From Enterococcus mediterraneensis (GTDB lineage Bacteria > Bacillota > Bacilli > Lactobacillales > Enterococcaceae), in assembly GCF_900604485.1 (NCBI RefSeq), contig NZ_UWOP01000001.1, positions 1,349,501 to 1,413,500 on the forward strand: a DNA stretch of 64,000 nucleotides, in the 5' to 3' direction. Every line of letters starts with the position of its first letter. Position 1 is the stretch's first letter. The notes beneath the pieces are model-generated. The model had not been told where the DNA came from. It did no database searches and worked only from the letters and a program-made list of their open reading frames with translations. A program made the translations under genes and the position numbers. Positions 4,159 through 29,880 of the stretch are shown here, one piece after another.

Positions 4159-4199
4159 AGTAGAGGTACTTGTGATAAATTTTTGATAAATGAATAATG

Positions 4200-4330
4200 A
4201 TGTTTATGAGATTTTTAGATGGAAGCCAGTGAGAATCTGGCACGGTCCCGCCACTGTAATAGAAAGTATGCCGTTCCTTGGAGAGTATATATTTCTAAAG
4301 TCAGGTCTTTCTAAAATTTCATCTTCGGGC
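4200..4330 (+). promoter_or_regulatory. Cobalamin riboswitch aptamer upstream of eutG
   Basis: The B12-box core is plain: a GCCAGTGAGAATCTGGC stem-loop at about 4224, CGGTCCCGCCACTGT at about 4243, and the downstream AAGTCAGGTC element near 4298. A possible promoter precedes it (TTGTGA 4170-4175, 17 bp, AATAAT 4193-4198). The switch does not lead directly into a coding gene; it is followed by a terminator (4353-4402) and then by an RNA with ANTAR hairpins. This is the EutX arrangement of E. faecalis, in which adenosylcobalamin shortens the RNA and removes a decoy for EutV. Confidence 0.92.
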
Positions 4331-4352
4331 ATGCTGTTTCGAGGTAAAACAG

Positions 4353-4402
4353 GATGTTTCTTCTTACGCTCCGCACAGTGTCTAAGCCCAAGCATCTTTT
4401 TT
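4353..4402 (+). terminator. Riboswitch-controlled terminator (short EutX end)
   Basis: GATGTTT at 4353-4359 can pair with AAGCATC at 4390-4396 (one G-U pair), followed by six T residues. It lies between the aptamer and the ANTAR hairpins, so ligand-induced termination here would remove the EutV-binding part. The stem is short and has a large loop. Its control by the aptamer is inferred from the known EutX system. Confidence 0.55.
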
Positions 4403-6909: not shown

Positions 6910-8344
6910 TATCAGGGAAATTGTTTACTTATGTGAGAAATATACGAGCCTTTTTGAAAGCGATATCAAAGAGCTTATCAAAACTGCTCAGCATATCACT
7001 GAAAAAAATTTATATGCAGATGCAGATGTCTTTATCGATGTGTATAACGAGATGACACAAGAAGCATTGGTTGTTTACCATAAACGTCCTAAAAATAAAG
7101 AATCACTGTATCAAAAGCGTGTTATTGGTCAAGCAGCATTATTGGAAAATGAGCCGGGAGTTATGCGCACAATGGAAACAAGCCTCAATACCATTGGGTT
7201 AATGGCCTTGTCACAAGAAAATCGTCCTATTAGACAAAATATCTATCCTATAAGAAATAATAAAAAAACAATAGGAGTAATCATTGTTGAAAAGGATATT
7301 ATTCAAGAATTTGATGGGAATTTTGCTAAAGCTGAACAGTCTAACGGTTTTAAAATATCAAATGTTATTAAACAGATCTATCAAGTTCAAGAAGGTTTTG
7401 TCGACCAGTTAGCGGAAGCAATCCTTATCTACAATGATGCTGGTATATTAATCAGTTCAAATCAAGTTGCTAAAGAGCTATACCGTAAATTAGGTTATCG
7501 AACTGAAATTTATGGAATGCACTATGATAACTTAACATTAGACTATACTACTTTTGAATATTCACTTTATCAATTCAAAAATGCCTTTATTACAGAATCA
7601 CTAAACACAGAAACGACTTATCTTTCATACCATTTTAAAATCAAACGGATTTGGATTGAAAGTGAAGCAAAGCTGATTGTTATCATTCAAGATGATACAG
7701 CTATCAAGGAGAAAGAAGCAGAGATTGTGTCTAAATCGGCTGCTATTCGTGAAATCCACCACCGAGTGAAAAATAATTTACAATCTGTTGTTTCTCTTTT
7801 ACGAATACAAGAGCGTCGGACAAAAAGTACTGAGGCTAAAAAAGTATTGAAAGAAAGCGTTGGGCGGATTATGGCGATTGCTGCCACGCATGAATTATTG
7901 TCCAAACAAGTTGAGGATCAGGTATCTTTGATCCAGACACTTGAAGCGGTGGTATATAATTTCCGACATATATTTTCAAATTCTCGTGAGATTGAATGGA
8001 TAGTAGAGATCGATCCTAAAATTTACGTCCAAAGTGATCAGATGGTAACAATTTCTTTGATTGTTAATGAATTAATCCAAAATATTTTTGATCATGCCTA
8101 TGCATCAAATGAAAAAGGAAAAATCAAATTATCAGGTCAAATAGATGATTACATTATCTGTATCAAGGTTCAAGATAATGGTCATGGCTATGATGCTAAA
8201 GCAAAGTATGACAGCAGCTTAGGCCTGATGATTGTAAACAGTTATGTTAAAGATAAGCTAAAAGGTAAAATTAAAACTGAATCGAATGAGCAAGGAACTA
8301 CAACTTGCTTCTATTTTGAAAAAAACACCAATGATGTTGTTTGA
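6902..8344 (+). CDS. eutW: Ethanolamine-sensing histidine kinase EutW
   Basis: A 480-residue soluble kinase with no obvious membrane segment. The N-terminal half (about 1-150) resembles EutW sensor regions, a PAS-like segment follows (about 160-265), then a HisKA_2 dimerisation/phosphotransfer helix EIHHRVKNNLQS with the tandem histidines at residues 286-287, and a GHKL ATPase domain (N box SLIVNELIQNIFDHAY, G1 VQDNGHGYD, G2 SLGLMIVNSYV). It senses ethanolamine and phosphorylates EutV. The last codons also form hairpin P1 of the eutA leader, so coding and RNA control overlap here. Confidence 0.93.
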   Translation: MTDIREIVYLCEKYTSLFESDIKELIKTAQHITEKNLYADADVFIDVYNEMTQEALVVYHKRPKNKESLYQKRVIGQAALLENEPGVMRTMETSLNTIGLMALSQENRPIRQNIYPIRNNKKTIGVIIVEKDIIQEFDGNFAKAEQSNGFKISNVIKQIYQVQEGFVDQLAEAILIYNDAGILISSNQVAKELYRKLGYRTEIYGMHYDNLTLDYTTFEYSLYQFKNAFITESLNTETTYLSYHFKIKRIWIESEAKLIVIIQDDTAIKEKEAEIVSKSAAIREIHHRVKNNLQSVVSLLRIQERRTKSTEAKKVLKESVGRIMAIAATHELLSKQVEDQVSLIQTLEAVVYNFRHIFSNSREIEWIVEIDPKIYVQSDQMVTISLIVNELIQNIFDHAYASNEKGKIKLSGQIDDYIICIKVQDNGHGYDAKAKYDSSLGLMIVNSYVKDKLKGKIKTESNEQGTTTCFYFEKNTNDVV

Positions 8345-18992: not shown

Positions 18993-19039
18993 AAGTGGAT
19001 GATTTAAGACACGAGGTATTGTATGATAGAAATATAAAA

Positions 19040-19195
19040 CTAAATATCAGCTAGAGATATTAGGGAATGAGGTGCGAATCCTCAACAGCCCCTTTCTACT
19101 GTGACATGGACGAAATCTTATTACTCACTGAGAGAATCTTGGGAAGAGAAGATAGTAGGTCGAAATGAAGTCAGGATATCTAATTTCTTTAGCGC
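19040..19195 (+). promoter_or_regulatory. Second cobalamin riboswitch, upstream of a B12-uptake pair
   Basis: The core is at 19062-19102: GGGAA, a GAGGTGCGAATCCTC stem-loop, CAGCCCC and CTACTGTGA; the downstream GAAGTCAGGATATC element is at 19167. The order matches the cobalamin class. It is on the same strand as the DUF4430 lipoprotein and the ECF S component. It differs in sequence from the aptamer at 4200, so it is not a recent copy. Confidence 0.9.
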
Positions 19196-19288
19196 TGGAT
19201 AAATATCAGGGTGGTACATCCAGCAATCACGGACAATATTTTGTTTTTGTAAGAAAAGCTTATAATATTGTGACGGGACTGCTGTTAT

Positions 19289-22606: not shown

Positions 22607-22636
22607 TTGACAAGAAACAAACGTTTTCATTAGAAT
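22607..22636 (+). promoter_or_regulatory. Promoter of a possible small RNA
   Basis: TTGACA at 22607-22612 and TAGAAT at 22631-22636 with an 18-bp spacer. No gene with a ribosome site follows; the transcript would run into the structured region at 22665-22760. The sequence before it (GTTCGCTTGACA ... AAACAAACGTT) is similar to the polymerase promoter region at 20791 but lacks a full LexA box. Confidence 0.6.
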
Positions 22637-22639
22637 GTA

Positions 22640-22775
22640 TTCAGATAGTTTAAATCAAATAAAAAAAGGCACCTTGCAGTTCGTTGGCGCGAATCTACAA
22701 GGCCTTGATAAGTCAACTACACTGACCATCAAGTTGCCATAGTTAGTGCAAGCACTAACCTTATTTATTGTACCT
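22640..22775. ncRNA. Candidate convergent small-RNA (antisense) locus
   Basis: The region has no convincing coding gene but much structure. On the minus strand, 22706-22660 forms a terminator (stem of 22695-22706 with 22666-22679, then a U-run from the A-tract 22660-22667). A perfect 8-bp inverted repeat GTTAGTGC/GCACTAAC lies at 22742-22759. A minus-strand -10 (TACAAT, 22772-22767) would start an RNA towards the plus-strand promoter at 22607. Two overlapping convergent RNAs resemble par/Fst-type antisense loci, but I found no Fst-like toxin frame. The only plus-strand frame (22636, 35 codons) lacks a ribosome site. Confidence 0.4.
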
Positions 22776-23014
22776 AATTTCTTTCGGGATTTCTACCAAT
22801 TTATTGGAATTTTTTAATCAAGTTAGGTCTATTTTGAGGGGATTGTTGCTCGTTTATTTGCTATGTCAGAGGTATTGGACAGTTGTCTGGTACCTCTTTT
22901 TTTATTTGATTTGGCTATCAGAAAGGGTGGGAGTATGGTGGTAATTCAAGTATTGTCGCACAATGCGGTGATCGCAAAAGAAATGGATAAGAAAGGAGAG
23001 TGGGTGCTAGTGCA

Positions 23015-23070
23015 GCGGGGCATCGGATTTGGGAAGAAACGAGCGGGGCATCGGATTTGGGAAGAAACGA
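23015..23070. repeat. Perfect 28-bp tandem duplication in a leader region
   Basis: A 28-bp unit beginning GCGGGGCATCGG is present twice in immediate succession (23015-23042 and 23043-23070) without mismatch. It lies in the leader of the PTS operon, about 80 bp before its terminator-like hairpin. It is GC-richer than its surroundings. A coding frame crosses it but looks spurious. Confidence 0.9.
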
Positions 23071-23214: not shown

Positions 23215-23589
23215 ATGAAGATTATTTTATGTGGCCATGGTTATTATGGCAATGCGCTTAAAGAGAGTGCGGAGATGATAGCGGGTTCTCAACCGCAACT
23301 TACAGCGATTGATTTTACTCCAGAGTTGGCTGTAAAAGACTTAGTCATGAAGATGCAGGAAGTAATCTTGGAAAATGAACACGAAGAAATTATTATTTTG
23401 ACGGATATTCCAGGAGGCAGTCCAGCAAATGCCGCAACACTCTGTAAGAAGCTATATCCTACTATCCATGTAGTGACTGGTTGTTCACTAGTATTACTTT
23501 TATCACTATTGTTAACAAAAGATATCAGTGAGGCTTGTCAAGATGGACAGCAGGCAATGCAAGAAATTCGATTGGAGGAAATGAAATGA
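23215..23589 (+). CDS. Mannose-family PTS EIIA component
   Basis: A 124-residue EIIA-Man protein: KIILCGHGYYGNALKESAEM holds the phosphorylated His at about residue 9, and ILTDIPGGSPANAA is the conserved second block. It accepts phosphate from HPr and passes it to EIIB. The ATG at 23215 follows AAGGAGGGC; the longer frame start at 23152 lies inside the terminator hairpin. It overlaps the EIIB gene by 4 bp. Confidence 0.92.
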   Translation: MKIILCGHGYYGNALKESAEMIAGSQPQLTAIDFTPELAVKDLVMKMQEVILENEHEEIIILTDIPGGSPANAATLCKKLYPTIHVVTGCSLVLLLSLLLTKDISEACQDGQQAMQEIRLEEMK

Positions 23590-24077
23590 TTGTAGCGATT
23601 CGGATTGATGAACGATTGATTCACGGACAAGTTGCGACAATGTGGACGAATAGTTTGAAAGTCACTCGTATTATGGTAGTTGATGACACGATTATAAAAA
23701 ATGAAATGGAAAAAGAAGTGTTGAAACTGGCGAAACCGGGGAACGTAAAGCTTAGTATCTTATCCGTTCGTACAGCTGCCGATAGGATTCTAGCTGATAA
23801 TTATGAGGATCAACGTGTGTTTTTACTGGTAAAAAATCCAGAAACGTTAGTTCAGTTGATTTCATATGGAGTAGCCATTAAGGAAGTCAATGTGGGAAAT
23901 TTATCTGCAACTGTAAATAGTCGAGCTGTAACAAAATCTGTCCATGTTGATGATAAACAAGCCAAAGCCTTTAAAGAACTTCATGATGCCAAAGTAAATT
24001 TGCAATATCAAATGGTTCCTAATGAAGAAGGACGTGACTTTTATAAAATGATGGAGGATGTTGGAAAATGGAATTGA
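23586..24077 (+). CDS. Mannose-family PTS EIIB component
   Basis: A 163-residue EIIB-Man/Sor protein: IVAIRIDERLIHGQVATMWT with the phospho-acceptor His near residue 14, and VNVGNLSATVNSRAVTKSV. It takes phosphate from EIIA and gives it to the sugar during transport. The ATG at 23586 has GGAGGAAATGA upstream and overlaps the EIIA stop. The last 10 bp overlap the EIIC start. Confidence 0.92.
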   Translation: MIVAIRIDERLIHGQVATMWTNSLKVTRIMVVDDTIIKNEMEKEVLKLAKPGNVKLSILSVRTAADRILADNYEDQRVFLLVKNPETLVQLISYGVAIKEVNVGNLSATVNSRAVTKSVHVDDKQAKAFKELHDAKVNLQYQMVPNEEGRDFYKMMEDVGKWN

Positions 24078-24856
24078 GTGTTTGGCAATTAGGCATATTG
24101 ATCATTTTTTCTTTTTTTACGATCTTAGATTCTTTGTCTTTGAACCTAGGTTGTCAATTTCCCGTAATCGTTGGAGCATTTGTTGGTATGGTCATCGGTG
24201 ATTTAAGGTTGGGATTGATGATCGGGTCTACATTGCAATTGATGGTCTTAGGAGTTGGAACTTATGGTGGCGCCTCTGTTCCTGATTTTACGACTGGGGC
24301 GATCGTTGGGACAGTCTATGCATATCTAACAGGTGGAGATGTAGAATTTGCCCTTGCATTAGCGGTACCTGTAGGGCTGCTAATGGTTCAATTAGATGTT
24401 TTAGCTCGTTTTAGTAACACTTTCTTTTTACATCGAGTAGATCGAAGTATTGAAAGAATGGATTTAAAAGGCATTCGCCGCAATATCTTATTAGGGGCAT
24501 TGCCATGGGGATTATCTCGAGCGATTCCTGTGTCAATCATGCTTATTTTTGGACGTGGCGTTATAAATGCAATCGTAAATCAATTACCAGATTGGCTAAT
24601 GGGTGGATTAAAAGTTTCGGGTGGCTTGTTACCAGTCGTTGGGATTGCTGTGCTACTTCGCTATTTGCCGACAAAGAAATTTTTCCCATATCTTATTATT
24701 GGATTTTTTTGTGCAGCCTATTTAAAGGTGCCAATGCTTGGGGTCGCGTGTGTGGGAAGTGCCATTGCTCTGATTGCGTATAATAATCAAATTCAGAACA
24801 AACCCGTCTTTGTAAATGCCGTTAGTTCAGAAGGAGAAGATGATTATGAAGAATGA
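24068..24856 (+). CDS. Mannose-family PTS EIIC component
   Basis: A 262-residue membrane protein with 6-8 hydrophobic segments, LGCQFPVIVGAFVGMVIGDL and STLQLMVLGVGTYGGASVPD being the family's conserved N-terminal features. It forms the sugar channel with EIID. It is intact here, unlike the EIIC at 51950. It overlaps the EIID start by 11 bp. Confidence 0.92.
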   Translation: MELSVWQLGILIIFSFFTILDSLSLNLGCQFPVIVGAFVGMVIGDLRLGLMIGSTLQLMVLGVGTYGGASVPDFTTGAIVGTVYAYLTGGDVEFALALAVPVGLLMVQLDVLARFSNTFFLHRVDRSIERMDLKGIRRNILLGALPWGLSRAIPVSIMLIFGRGVINAIVNQLPDWLMGGLKVSGGLLPVVGIAVLLRYLPTKKFFPYLIIGFFCAAYLKVPMLGVACVGSAIALIAYNNQIQNKPVFVNAVSSEGEDDYEE

Positions 24857-25640
24857 AGCGACTAAAAAAGAATTATTACAAATGAATACTCGTTGGATAT
24901 TTACCAGTCAAATTTGCTGGAATTACGAACGGATGATGTCTACAGGGTATTTGTACTCTATCCTGCCATTTTTAGAAAAAAATTATCCCAATAAACAGGA
25001 TTTGCAATCAATGTTACGAATGCACAACCAATTTTTCAATAGTAATCCAATGACCGGTACGTTGATTCTTGGAATCGATCAAGCGATCGAAGAAAAAGAA
25101 GGGATCAAATCAAAAGAGGTCGTTACTGGAATCAAGACCGGATTGATGGGGCCATTTGCTGGCGTAGGAGATACATTGTTCGGTGTTCTTTTGCCAACCA
25201 TCATGGGTTCGATTGCTGCTTATATGGGGCTTCAAGGAAATGTTACTGGAGTCTTGCTATGGATTGCGGCAAATATCAGCGTTGTTGTTTTGCGATATTT
25301 TTTGATGCTGAGTGGTTATCGTCAAGGAACAAAATTAGTGAACGAAATGGGAAATCGTCTGCAGATTCTCACGGATACAGCGATTCTTTTAGGAATGACA
25401 GTAGTTGGTGCGTTGATTCCGACTGTAGTGAATGCGCCTATTTCTTTCATCTACAAATCTGGTGAGGTAGAAATGAAACTTCAAGAGATTCTGGATCAAG
25501 TAATGCCATCGTTGATTCCGGTTTTACTTGTTATGCTTGTCTATCATCTATTGGGAAAGAAAAAAATGACTTCCTCAAAAGCGATTTTATTCATTATGAT
25601 TTTAGGCATTGTTCTTTATAATTTACACATTTTAGGATAG
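24846..25640 (+). CDS. Mannose-family PTS EIID component
   Basis: A 264-residue EIID-Man protein: [38 protein letters not shown] and [16 protein letters not shown] are diagnostic, with membrane helices in the C-terminal half. The ATG at 24846 is chosen because AAGGAG lies 9 bp upstream; ATG 24840 would be too close. Confidence 0.92.
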
Positions 25641-25651
25641 GAGAGAAAAAA

Positions 25652-26353
25652 ATGAGTTTAGCATATTTTGATTATTGTGAGGAATTGGCTGTTGTTTTAA
25701 GGAAAGAAGAACCTAAGATGAGAGAGGCAGGAAAACGAATCGCTGTTGCAATTGCAAATGGAGGGATACTTCAAGCCTTCGGTAGCGGACATTCACATGC
25801 AGGCGCAATTGAAATATCGGGCAGAGCAGGCGGATTGATCCCTACAAAAGCTATCATCGATCCAGCAAATGGCATGTATGAAAGCATCGAAGGCGTCGGT
25901 AATCTGCTGGCTAAAAAAGTTCAGATAAAAGAGTATGATATTTTTGTTATTATTTCAAATTCTGGAAGGAATCCAGAAGTCATTGAACTAGCAAAATGGG
26001 TCAAAGATCATGGGAATGATTTGATTGTTGTAACTGCTTTAGATATCTCAGAAAAAAGTACTTCTCGCCATAGCAGCGGTATGCGTCTTTTTGAATTGGC
26101 GGATGTGATTTTGGATAATCATTCTGTTTTTGGAGATGCGGCATTAACGATCGATGGACTAGATACGCCAGTTTGCGGTACTTCCTCTTACGCCGCTACG
26201 TTACTTCTCCAACAGACCATGCATTTTGCAATCAATGAATTGGTAACACAAGGAATTAAACCACCAGTCTATAAAAGTGCAAATATTGATGGTGGCAGAG
26301 AAGAAAACGATTATTGGGAGAAAAAGTATGCCGATCGAATCTTCCATATGTAA
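25652..26353 (+). CDS. SIS-domain protein (UPF0309-like), probable sugar-phosphate isomerase/deglycase
   Basis: A 233-residue single-SIS protein: [20 protein letters not shown] is the phosphosugar-binding loop, [19 protein letters not shown] the second, and [14 protein letters not shown] the C-terminal signature. This family acts on phosphorylated amino sugars or glycated compounds, or regulates by binding them. It follows EIID after 11 bp and is overlapped by the PatB-like gene. The substrate should be the compound imported by the PTS. A remnant of a related gene lies at 20405. Confidence 0.85.
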
Positions 26354-27503
26354 GAAACAACTTCAGTTCCCAGATCGACATGAAACTTGTTCTGTGAAAT
26401 GGGATCGAAACACGCAAGATGTTTTACCATTTTCTGTTGCAGATATGGATTTTTCAGGGAGCGTTCATCTGATCAATAGATTAAAACAAAGATTAGAGCA
26501 TCCTGTTTTGGGTTACACAGATCCTTTTCCGAACACAAAACGAACAATCTGTAATTGGTGGAATAGTAGATACCACACGACCATATCAGAAGAAGCAGTG
26601 ATCTATTCCACCGGTGTTCTTCACAGCTATGTGCAGATTATTGAAGAGTTTACAAGAATCGGTGATAAAATTCTGACTTTCTCGCCGATTTATCCGCCGC
26701 TGTTCAATTTGCCTGTTAAATTGGGTCGACCGGTGGTTTTCAGTGAATTGATAAACGACAATTGGCAAATTGATTGTGAAGATGTAGAGAAAAAAATCCG
26801 CTCTGATCCAACGATCCGTCTATTGGTTCTATGTAATCCCCATAATCCAGTCTGTAAAGTATGGGGTAAAGTGCTATTGGAAAAATTAGTAATGATTTGT
26901 TCGAAATATGATGTATTGCTGGTATCTGATGAGATCCATATTGATCTGAGCTTTATTCCAGCTGTATCTATTTTACAAGTCTCAAGACCACAGGATGCTG
27001 TGATTGTGTTAGGATCACCAGTGAAAACTTTTAATGTAGCTGGAATAAAAGGATCTTTTCTATTCTGCCCATCTGTTAAAATTCGCGAACGTTTAGCAAT
27101 CCGCTTTAAAACAAGAGGAATCTCTGATTTGAATTTATTCGCCTATCAAATGCTAGAAGAGGTGTATGGTAATCCGGAAAACGAAATTTGGTTAGAGCGA
27201 GCGAAGAACCAAATTTCAGCTAATTACCAGTTGTTATGTAAAAATATGAAACGATCTTTGCCAAAAGTAGAAATTGCCCCTTTAGAAGCTACCTATCTTG
27301 CTTGGATAGATTTGCGGGCCTATTTAACTGATGAACAAATAAAAAAAGCTTGTCACCGAGCAAAAATTACTCTTCACTACGGAAATGAATTTGGTTTGAA
27401 TGGAGAAGGGTTCATTCGTTGGAATATTGCCTGTGACCCTGTGATTTTGGAAAAGGGAATTGATTTATTTATCAAAGAAGTATCGCGAATAAGTTTAGGC
27501 TGA
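26328..27503 (+). CDS. PatB/MalY-type PLP-dependent C-S lyase/aminotransferase
   Basis: A 391-residue fold-type I PLP enzyme. Typical PatB/MalY blocks: CSVKWDRN and [10 protein letters not shown] near the N-terminus, [22 protein letters not shown], the PLP-lysine region [14 protein letters not shown], and [19 protein letters not shown] at the end. These enzymes cleave C-S bonds of cystathionine-like substrates or transaminate. The ATG at 26328 follows GGGAG and overlaps the SIS gene by 26 bp, so it is tightly coupled to the PTS operon, an unusual partner. Confidence 0.88.
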
Positions 27504-27622: not shown

Positions 27623-28246
27623 ATGAGTGGAATGTTATTCAAATATTTAGAAAATGATAATGCAGAAGCGAAAAGTCAAGTGAATGCATTGGAAGAGCCT
27701 CATGTCCACATTTTGATTTCCCAAAAATTAGCAAAGATGTTTGGGATCGATCCTCGAAAATTAGCACCTTGTCCTGAAGAGGTAAAGCCTGAGAATACGT
27801 TTCTGGCGTCGACCTTTTCATTTGGTGATGAGAATGAAACGATATTATTAGCGCGAAATCTAGCTATGAATTCCACCTATATGGTAGATATCTAACCAGA
27901 AGAAGTGGAGGCCGATGAAATCGGCAATGAAGTGCTAATGGGATATGAGGAGGAATATCTTTCTGAAGATGCGACGATCGATCCAGAGAAATTGCCAATA
28001 AAGAGCGAGGACTTTCCTGCTGCTTGGGAAGCTTTTGGCTATTATGAGGCACCTCGAGACATGGTAAGAAATATGATCAACATGACTCGTTTCCAAATTT
28101 CTGTGATAAAGAATCATTTGCAGCATAATTCTCCAGAAATATCGGATGAGCCTGATCTCAAGCTGTTGAAACTTTACGAATCACTCTTGAACGGAAACAT
28201 TAGCTTAGAAGAAGCACACAAAAATTACCTAGAAAATAAAGACTAG
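27623..28246 (+). pseudogene. Unknown gene split by one in-frame stop codon
   Basis: Two frames, 27623-27895 (90 aa) and 27905-28246 (113 aa), are in the same phase and separated only by TAA at 27893-27895 and nine bases. Read through, they give a 207-residue acidic protein without recognised domains. Both parts have the same composition, and the second has only a GTG without a ribosome site. A single substitution in a sense codon explains the split. Readthrough or independent function cannot be excluded, but a decayed gene is most likely. Confidence 0.7.
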
Positions 28247-28278
28247 CTCAGCCGAGAACAGTCAACAAAAAAAGCTGA

Positions 28279-28320
28279 ACAGCTTGTAAGTCCAAATGCG
28301 GGACTTACAAGCTGTTTTTT
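28279..28320. terminator. Strong terminator between convergent units
   Basis: A 15-bp perfect stem ACAGCTTGTAAGTCC/GGACTTACAAGCTGT followed by TTTTTT on the plus strand, with AAAAAAA upstream so that it can also serve the minus-strand Mga-like gene. Confidence 0.9.
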
Positions 28321-28365: not shown

Positions 28366-29871
28366 CTATTGCGGCAATTTATACGCTAGATTTTTCTTTC
28401 GATGGTGTTTTTGCAAGTCGCGATACAATGCAACGTAGTTTGTACTATTGCTAAAAAAATTAAAAACGAAAAACGGTGTCTGATTTCCTTCTGGCAACAG
28501 TGCGACAGAGGAGCAGATCAAATAATCATAGCGCTCTACTTCATGGATCGAAAAAGGCAATAACTCCACAAATGATAAATCTCGCAGATGTGCCTTGATA
28601 TCTTGTTGAAACAGCTGGTTGGCTTCCATGATCAAGGAAACATATAGCGGTTGTTTTTGTCCAGATTCCTCAAAGTATTCTAGTGTCAACCACGTGAACA
28701 GCTCCGCCAAGCAACCGTTACATCCTTGCAACCAATCAAATTCTTGTCTTTTCATAAATTGCTGGAAAAATGCTGTAACGCGTTCTTTTAATGTTTCGAA
28801 CAATACAGACTGGTTTTTCCGGAAATAAAGCAATAAGTCGAATAGATTAGGGATCCGCTGAGGAAATACATAGTAGCAAAACAAAACATTATACAGATTG
28901 CCATGGATATTAGGATTTTTTTTCAATAAATCAGTATCGCCTCGCAGGATTTTTTTGCTCCAAAATTGTTCGAAACACTCTAACAATTTATTCAGCTGAT
29001 TTTTCTGCTGAAGATGAGATTGCATTATCGGCAGGCGTGGATCGTTTGGATCAGTATAAGTAGGCGCGTAATGATACATAAACTGGATAAAACGGTATTC
29101 GCCTTTAAGTTTTTCAGCTGTTAATGGAAAGAAGGCTTGGAGATTTTCCGGTGCCAAAGGGCTATCTACAACCAATATACCATCGTAGCGCGGATCATCT
29201 TCTACGTAAAATCCTTGTTTCGTGCGGATATAGGTGATCTCCGCGAAAAGATAGATTTCTTTAATACCCACGTAATCTTGACCCAAAGGAACTTCCTGCT
29301 TTAAAGCTGCTAATGTAGTAGCTAATTCCCCTTCTTCAAAATGATGGAATAATTCCTCGCTGCCTTTAGAAACGGCCCAGACGAAATTGAAAAAAGTCAA
29401 ACGGATCAGCCGTTCATCGCCTTTTAGTGTCAATTTGCTGCGATTGAATGTTAAACCAAATTGTTGAATGTACTCTGCTAGCGGTTGTAAGTAGCGCATA
29501 GCAGAAGCGATGCTTATGTATTGAATCTCGCAAAAGTTGACCAATTCCTTTTCGGGAAACTGCAACATGAAAAGAAGTGCCTGATAAGGAATGCTTCGTC
29601 TGATCAAAAACGAGAAATACTGTTCATAGGTGACCAATCCCGGCTCCCAACAAAGCTGTCCTTGTGGTGAAAAAAAAGATTCTTTTTGATCTTGCAACGC
29701 TCGAAAATCTTCAAGCATCTCCATCAACAAAGACTGCGTACTGCTGTAAGCAAATCCCAATCCATCATTGATAGATTTCACCGAATATTCCCCAGCAGGC
29801 AACGTTTCAAGAAAATAGGTGATCTTCAGTTTTTTCTGTTCTTTTTTTGATAACAAAATAGACGCCAGCAT
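28366..29871 (-). CDS. Mga-family regulator, EbpR-like
   Basis: A 501-residue protein. The N-terminal part has two helix-turn-helix segments (TYFLETLPAGEYSVKSIND, then YEQYFSFLIRRSIPYQALLF and IQYISIASAMRYLQPLAEYI), the central part is PRD-like and the C-terminus EIIB-like, as in Mga/AtxA regulators. It is divergent from the pilus operon at 31041; in E. faecalis the Mga-family EbpR sits by ebpABC and activates it, so the same role is inferred. ATG 29871 is preferred to the GTG at 29880, because GAGGGTGAGG lies at the right distance only from the ATG. Confidence 0.85.
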   Translation of the reverse strand: MLASILLSKKEQKKLKITYFLETLPAGEYSVKSINDGLGFAYSSTQSLLMEMLEDFRALQDQKESFFSPQGQLCWEPGLVTYEQYFSFLIRRSIPYQALLFMLQFPEKELVNFCEIQYISIASAMRYLQPLAEYIQQFGLTFNRSKLTLKGDERLIRLTFFNFVWAVSKGSEELFHHFEEGELATTLAALKQEVPLGQDYVGIKEIYLFAEITYIRTKQGFYVEDDPRYDGILVVDSPLAPENLQAFFPLTAEKLKGEYRFIQFMYHYAPTYTDPNDPRLPIMQSHLQQKNQLNKLLECFEQFWSKKILRGDTDLLKKNPNIHGNLYNVLFCYYVFPQRIPNLFDLLLYFRKNQSVLFETLKERVTAFFQQFMKRQEFDWLQGCNGCLAELFTWLTLEYFEESGQKQPLYVSLIMEANQLFQQDIKAHLRDLSFVELLPFSIHEVERYDYLICSSVALLPEGNQTPFFVFNFFSNSTNYVALYRDLQKHHRKKNLAYKLPQ

Positions 29872-29880
29872 ATCCCTCAC

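Follow-up and report, generated by a model that had tools for sequence, protein, structure and literature searches.

What is a gene for a carbon–sulfur (C-S) lyase doing in an operon for sugar uptake? The question is raised by the operon at positions 23,215 to 27,503 of a 64,000-nucleotide stretch of the 2.70-Mb Enterococcus mediterraneensis genome (contig NZ_UWOP01000001.1, positions 1,349,501 to 1,413,500), which we call the window. The operon consists of six plus-strand genes, encoding four components of a phosphotransferase system (PTS), a SIS-domain protein and a pyridoxal 5'-phosphate (PLP) enzyme of the PatB/MalY family. We tentatively read it as an operon that takes up and splits a conjugate in which an (N-acyl)hexosamine is joined, through S or O, to a beta-substituted amino acid, and consider this reading somewhat less than evenly probable.

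Gene content and coordinates had been proposed earlier from the letters alone (the sequence-only reading), including a 26-bp overlap between the last two genes, and all proved correct against open reading frames (ORFs), Pfam and NCBIfam. The four PTS domains exceeded their Pfam cut-offs: EIIA, of the mannose/sorbose family (23215..23589; EIIA-man, 59 bits), EIIB (23586..24077; PTSIIB_sorb, 167 bits), EIIC (24068..24856; EII-Sor, 250 bits) and EIID (24846..25640; EIID-AGA, 286 bits), whose ATG start at 24846 was picked by inspection. The best NCBIfam models for EIIA (AgaF, 86.7 bits, below the cut-off of 130) and EIIC (AgaW, 172 bits, below the cut-off of 300) describe (N-acetyl)galactosamine PTSs, and those for EIIB and EIID describe mannose-family PTSs in general. 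The SIS protein (25652..26353) matched Pfam SIS_2 and, above its cut-off of 135, NCBIfam PRK02947 (sugar isomerase domain protein; 248 bits), a UPF0309/NagS-family assignment. The last gene, which we refer to as PatB (26328..27503), matched Pfam Aminotran_1_2 and has GGGAG immediately 5' of its ATG at 26328. Besides SIS/PatB, the EIIA/EIIB (4 bp), EIIB/EIIC (10 bp) and EIIC/EIID (11 bp) pairs overlap, leaving an 11-bp gap between EIID and SIS as the sole non-overlapping junction of the five.

The PTS-SIS-PatB arrangement is real and not a product of chance, because the same order was observed in six loci of three genera, the window included. A search of 105 Enterococcaceae genomes recovered 13 SIS loci in 12 genomes (E <= 1e-60), and we examined the surroundings of all of them. 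The 12 SIS proteins from outside the window were 61%–66% identical to the window SIS, and PatB directly followed SIS in six of the 13 loci (the window, G303, G397, G403, G406 and G409; G and L numbers are our handles for genomes and loci). Within the genus, two out of 10 genomes had a SIS match at E <= 1e-20, one in the window itself and one, at 37% identity, in G009. Matches were found in 40 out of 395 genomes of an order-level sample (E <= 1e-35) and in nine out of 398 genomes of a phylum-level sample (E <= 1e-45), where the flanks of seven of the eight non-window loci had no PatB label; viral contigs yielded no SIS.

By their sequences, the PatBs of these operons are a specialised branch. 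The best NCBIfam model for the window PatB was the PatB family C-S lyase (TIGR04350), at 303 bits and below the cut-off of 340. Operon PatBs from G409 and G303 also fall short of it, both at 285 bits; two ordinary PatB paralogues in the window genome pass the same model (465 and 392 bits). Using the G409 PatB as a query, we found matches in 70 of the 105 family genomes (E <= 1e-57), of which the six top matches (880–250 bits) were all adjacent to SIS. An operon PatB search of the order sample returned just two genomes out of 364 at E <= 1e-73 (the window's and G303), again both SIS-adjacent. In a tree of 19 PatB proteins, a branch of 98/95 support separated the six operon PatBs from the rest, and this held without G303 (98/97) and without the four rows from genus g7 (98/98).

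The branch carries its own residue signature. Twelve alignment columns were uniform in the operon set (6/6) and present in <15% of 42 other PatBs, and eight (L48, H99, Y101, L125, V237, L268, E315 and H350) were exclusive to the six when compared with 53 other proteins; six control sets of six gave none. Among the 53 are four housekeeping PatBs from g7, proteins of viral contigs and E. coli MalY; Enterococcaceae plus a single further genus supply most of the set, so the sample is not broad. D65 was dropped as a private residue owing to its presence in four of the 53. Capture of a housekeeping PatB by chance was rejected on the strength of the private clade and signature, with long branches and the narrow comparison set as a caution. 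Codon comparisons indicate that the relatives' operon PatBs are under purifying selection: the ratio of nonsynonymous to synonymous divergence (dN/dS) among the five from outside the window was 0.10–0.27 (nine of 10 pairs computable). The SIS genes of the same five genomes were more tightly constrained (0.013–0.083, eight of 10 pairs), and in both genes dS was mostly >1, which makes the ratios rough. In the same four genomes, housekeeping PatBs had a dN of 0.086–0.151 versus 0.152–0.243 for operon PatBs; dN alone is comparable here, since housekeeping dS was saturated in five of the six pairs.

An AlphaFold model of the window PatB (eight sequences; mean predicted local distance difference test score 83.8; predicted template modelling score 0.84) had Bacillus subtilis PatB (6qp3; TM 0.90) as its nearest fold. 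The PLP lysine (K233) and the carboxylate-binding arginine (R364) were retained, as in all 59 proteins compared. The fold and catalytic residues are common to B. subtilis PatB and to ShPatB of S. hominis, from both of which the window clade differs by its private H99, Y101, L125, H350 and the other four. Excerpts of the ShPatB report model the substrate side chain among Tyr25, Val46, Tyr72, Val108, Pro134, Phe274 and Thr276, and describe E362 as important by mutation (PMC7385124). At a constant numbering offset, window H99 falls on V108 of ShPatB and H350 on E362, a placement that uses the B. subtilis PatB alignment, together with residue counts from Tyr72 and Arg376, and thus sequence offsets only. 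The two histidines therefore seem to occupy substrate-pocket positions, where they would accord with a side chain that is polar or carries a phosphate.

Among solved structures, the SIS protein has clear relatives in 3cvj and in NagS of Streptomyces (SCO4393; 9eol), the latter at 114 bits by phmmer. NagS, a GlcNAc-6P dehydratase of the same SIS family, dehydrates N-acetylglucosamine 6-phosphate (GlcNAc-6P) and N-acetylmannosamine 6-phosphate to 6P-chromogen I, a reactive intermediate, and excerpts of its description list H53, R64, E94 and D179 as essential and S91 and N228 as important (PMC12680351). Out of the nine residues probed according to these excerpts, eight are retained in the window SIS (H53, S54, R64, E94, S119, S121, D179 and N228; NagS numbering, hand-counted from the alignment). 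Among loci with SIS relatives, nagA was in the gene run at two (L143, and L138 with two PTS genes between), nanE at three (L111, L113 by inspection of the sequence start, and L139 at 36% similarity) and a beta-N-acetylglucosaminidase together with a GH3 gene at one (L115); the other loci had no amino-sugar gene nearby. UPF0309/NagS membership, the kept residues and these neighbors of relatives together point to an N-acylhexosamine-6-phosphate as a candidate substrate. Amadori and Heyns products, which the sequence-only reading had put forward, are not favored, because the SIS protein groups in UPF0309 with NagS as a solved relative. SIS deglycases of the GfrEF/FrlB type act on Amadori products, and no model of this type was among the NCBIfam matches at 1e-3, from a library that may hold no such model.

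Taken together, we infer the following substrate, bond type and order of steps for the conjugate operon. The PTS would import the conjugate and phosphorylate its sugar. PatB would then remove the amino acid, of the cysteine or serine type, by PLP-dependent beta-elimination of a C-S or C-O bond, yielding pyruvate and ammonia and freeing the sugar phosphate, and the SIS protein would act on the freed, ring-opened N-acylhexosamine-6-phosphate. The RidA family acts on aminoacrylate, and a RidA-family gene lies upstream of all four g7 PatB loci (PF01042 in L107, by similarity in the others), which fits an aminoacrylate product. In a more specific version, which strikes us as rather unlikely, the imported compounds would be glycosyl-cysteines or -serines from glycopeptides, such as S-GlcNAc-Cys or GalNAc-O-Ser, a dedicated PatB-derived beta-lyase would split them, and the NagS-like SIS would feed N-acylhexosamine-6-phosphate into metabolism. 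The idea of a sugar–amino acid conjugate was already part of the sequence-only reading, which had placed a cysteine-type amino acid in it; the conjugate is a sensible inference, while nothing points to sulfur over oxygen in the bond.

Several observations weigh against this conjugate reading. A Pfam scan of the operon found no glycosidase, deacetylase or kinase. The S91 position of NagS is a glycine in the window SIS, preceded by a shorter loop, and three NagS homologues of 25.7%–35.7% identity had negligible or no GlcNAc-6P dehydration, the authors concluding, in the excerpted text, that homologues outside Streptomycetaceae are likely unable to use GlcNAc-6P (PMC12680351). NagS activity cannot be assumed for the window SIS because of these inactive distant homologues; orthologues within Streptomycetaceae share at least 58.7% identity, and the dmdR1 linkage typical of their nagS is not seen at the window SIS, which sits between EIID and PatB. 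As for the PatB clade, the G409 query scored the window PatB (250 bits) nearly equal to the best ordinary PatB (245 bits), the tree tool warned of long branches meeting, and the window PatB was 36%–37% identical to four Lacticaseibacillus-type PatBs and 32%–38% identical to its own clade.

The distribution of PatB is a further point of this kind. Seven of the 13 Enterococcaceae SIS loci are without PatB, so that the PTS and SIS core exists on its own. Five of these belong to fucose clusters, found in G211, G251, G422, G369 and, for one of its two loci, G389: Pfam identified an alpha-L-fucosidase, an FGGY kinase, an L-fucose isomerase and a class II aldolase in G211, and the other four have the fucosidase and isomerase by similarity to G211. 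The second G389 locus has a GH35 gene, and the G315 locus has PTS and SIS alone; a PatB remnant was discounted there, as the region gave only two short, weak matches (E 0.22). The fucose loci would fit the conjugate reading if a hexosamine were the second sugar in the glycan taken up. Outside the family, 15 genomes of one genus in the order sample have a SIS 60%–63% identical to that of the window; L120, an annotated locus of L. monocytogenes, suggests that this genus is Listeria. Long flanks were retrieved for 13 of the 15 loci; EIIABCD was present in 12, CutC was near SIS in 10, and PatB was found in none. The window genome has its CutC gene elsewhere, outside the operon. Given the seven family loci and the 13 Listeria-type loci without it, PatB is an add-on to a PTS and SIS core. 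The coupling of PatB to PTS and SIS seen in the sequence-only reading thus stands for six of the 13 family loci, with a clade of its own and purifying selection, and does not extend to the other seven or to the Listeria type. A SIS tree required at least two gains or losses of the PatB label, and the PatB-bearing SIS proteins were accordingly not treated as one clade.

The PatB-less cores of the Listeria and fucose types, with CutC near SIS in 10 of the 13 Listeria-type loci, suit an explanation that we regard as possible if somewhat unlikely, namely a plain amino-sugar operon with a passenger, in which PTS and SIS would take an ordinary (amino) sugar and PatB, responding to the same signal, would act on a separate amino acid to supply sulfur, pyruvate or ammonia. 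It has to contend with the two ordinary PatBs already present in the genome and with the finding that, across the 105 family genomes, members of the operon PatB clade occur solely beside SIS. PatB might instead work on the sugar side, converting an amino sugar or the SIS product by elimination, racemisation or transamination. The sub-threshold score of the window PatB in its subfamily, the altered residues that may line its pocket and the amino acid racemase activity reported for a MalY-type enzyme in excerpts of PMC5845896 all agree with such a role, which we nevertheless judge quite unlikely, as the invariant arginine, which binds the alpha-carboxylate in the excerpted ShPatB account, argues for an alpha-amino acid substrate.

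A detoxification role would start from the chemistry of the SIS protein: like NagS, it would make an electrophilic unsaturated sugar phosphate, to which cysteine would add, and PatB would clear the adduct. The reactivity of 6P-chromogen I in the excerpted NagS study (PMC12680351) and the RidA-family gene near the g7 loci are in line with this scheme; the lack of activity in distant NagS homologues described there and the presence of PTS uptake in the same operon, which suggests nutrition, make it highly unlikely. Finally, PatB could mainly bind a regulator, much as MalY inhibits MalT via direct interaction according to excerpts of PMC10427625. We hold this to be the least probable explanation of all, given that the catalytic residues are kept, that purifying selection acts on the genes of the relatives and that adjacent regulators differ among PatB loci (GntR in g7, a small helix-turn-helix-like ORF in g8 by inspection, and a Mga-like gene downstream in the window), no search having been aimed at a MalT-like gene.

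Returning to the conjugate reading, we compared the operon with known systems. The sequence-only reading had stated that no pathway of this type was described, and in doing so overlooked E. coli malX-malY, which also pairs a PTS with a C-S lyase: a PTS permease gene is directly followed there by a gene for a PatB/MalY-family C-S lyase. Unlike the window, malX-malY has no adjoining SIS gene; the window PatB and E. coli MalY share only 28% identity, and the window PTS domains are of the mannose family, MalX being annotated as IIBC, a different PTS type. To our knowledge, the natural substrate of the MalX-MalY pair is not known. The L. monocytogenes locus (GntR-EIIABCD-SIS-CutC; lmo0021-lmo0025) shares the PTS and SIS order, with a SIS 60% identical to that of the window, and has CutC after SIS in place of PatB. 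Excerpts of PMC10580955 list lmo0021-lmo0024 as PTS subunits.

A pairing of PTS and C-S lyase is thus already known, and a pathway for glycoamino acids has a precedent in alf-2 of L. casei, a cluster for fucosyl-GlcNAc-Asn. Its AsdA, an aspartate decarboxylase, is a PLP enzyme. Like the proposed pathway, alf-2 lets a lactic acid bacterium import and split a glycoamino acid; the excerpted account places AsdA in the cluster with an MFS (major facilitator superfamily) permease and a glycosylasparaginase, and names no PTS, SIS or PatB gene (PMC6960285). Our literature search, which covered sources in part, found neither a substrate for a PTS and PatB/MalY pair nor a description of the PTS-SIS-PatB combination, and the pathway is likely new.

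A second neighborhood of this kind was found on an E. raffinosus plasmid (L122/L195), where genes annotated as lactose-type PTS IIA, IIB and IIC are followed by Xaa-Pro and M42 peptidases and a PatB/MalY-family gene. Next come a regulator and a UPF0309 SIS alongside an ascorbate-type PTS. The segment from the peptidases to SIS also occurs in G403, G404, G406 and G409, and the G409 gene run is 97%–100% identical to that of the plasmid. The plasmid enzyme has E. coli MalY as its nearest solved structure (312 bits; next 233), scores 307 bits against TIGR04350, below the cut-off, and falls outside the window PatB clade. At ten loci (L128–L137) where this ascorbate-type PTS also stands with SIS, no peptidase or PatB label was present. 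PTS, UPF0309 SIS and a PatB/MalY enzyme have therefore met at least twice, once alongside peptidases, whose genes suit a peptide-derived substrate. Counting E. coli MalX and the mannose-family PTS of the window, three kinds of PTS stand beside PatB/MalY enzymes.

Downstream of PatB, two small plus-strand ORFs in one frame (27623-27895 and 27905-28246, with a TAA between them) had no family match, and no relatives in the retrieved loci except the window's own copies. A consensus scan placed a plus-strand terminator-like hairpin at 28277..28317 and found none outside ORFs between the PatB stop and 28277; the operon transcript may therefore extend past PatB through the two small ORFs. An AcpB/EbpR/MafR-like (Mga) regulator gene (28366-29880, minus strand; 75.7 bits, below the cut-off of 130) faces the operon. 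On the 5' side is a 28-bp perfect tandem duplication (23014-23069). A catabolite-responsive (cre) site for CcpA was rejected there, as the consensus matched the window only once, at 6954, with 1.5 matches expected by chance.

Two plus-strand cobalamin riboswitches (4194-4362 and 19019-19198) and a candidate structured RNA (22643-22781, plus strand) lie further upstream, the latter ∼430 bp 5' of the operon, between promoter-like (22607-22636) and terminator-like (22868-22897) sequences. In another Enterococcaceae genus, g6, 12 genomes carry a conserved copy of this candidate upstream of a SIS homologue, with 67%–74% identity to the window over the longer BLAST pieces. Both-sided changes were seen in nine of 30 model pairs, and four of five measures exceeded all 500 shuffles, with slid controls well lower; the fifth, based on further pair types, did not stand above the shuffles (114/500). 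Rfam gave no match to the candidate region in the window and just two hits in L072, both far under gathering scores; beyond the window and the two included g6 loci, a model search of 55 sources gave no strong hit. The g6 SIS homologues (L069–L080) are ∼200 aa long. The GSGHS motif is absent from the printed SIS sequences of L072 and L075, and the L072 match to SIS_2 is confined to the second half of that domain; these two are perhaps non-catalytic. L072 also has a DcuC-family carrier and an amidohydrolase 3' of SIS.

The MalY-like enzyme and two peptidases behind a lactose-type PTS in E. raffinosus offer a lead on the roles of MalY-type enzymes. If the conjugate reading is true, the E. mediterraneensis operon would represent another bacterial route to glycopeptide remnants, and the UPF0309 SIS family would gain a metabolic setting outside Streptomyces. 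The old puzzle of E. coli MalXY would also become testable, opening a route towards its role.

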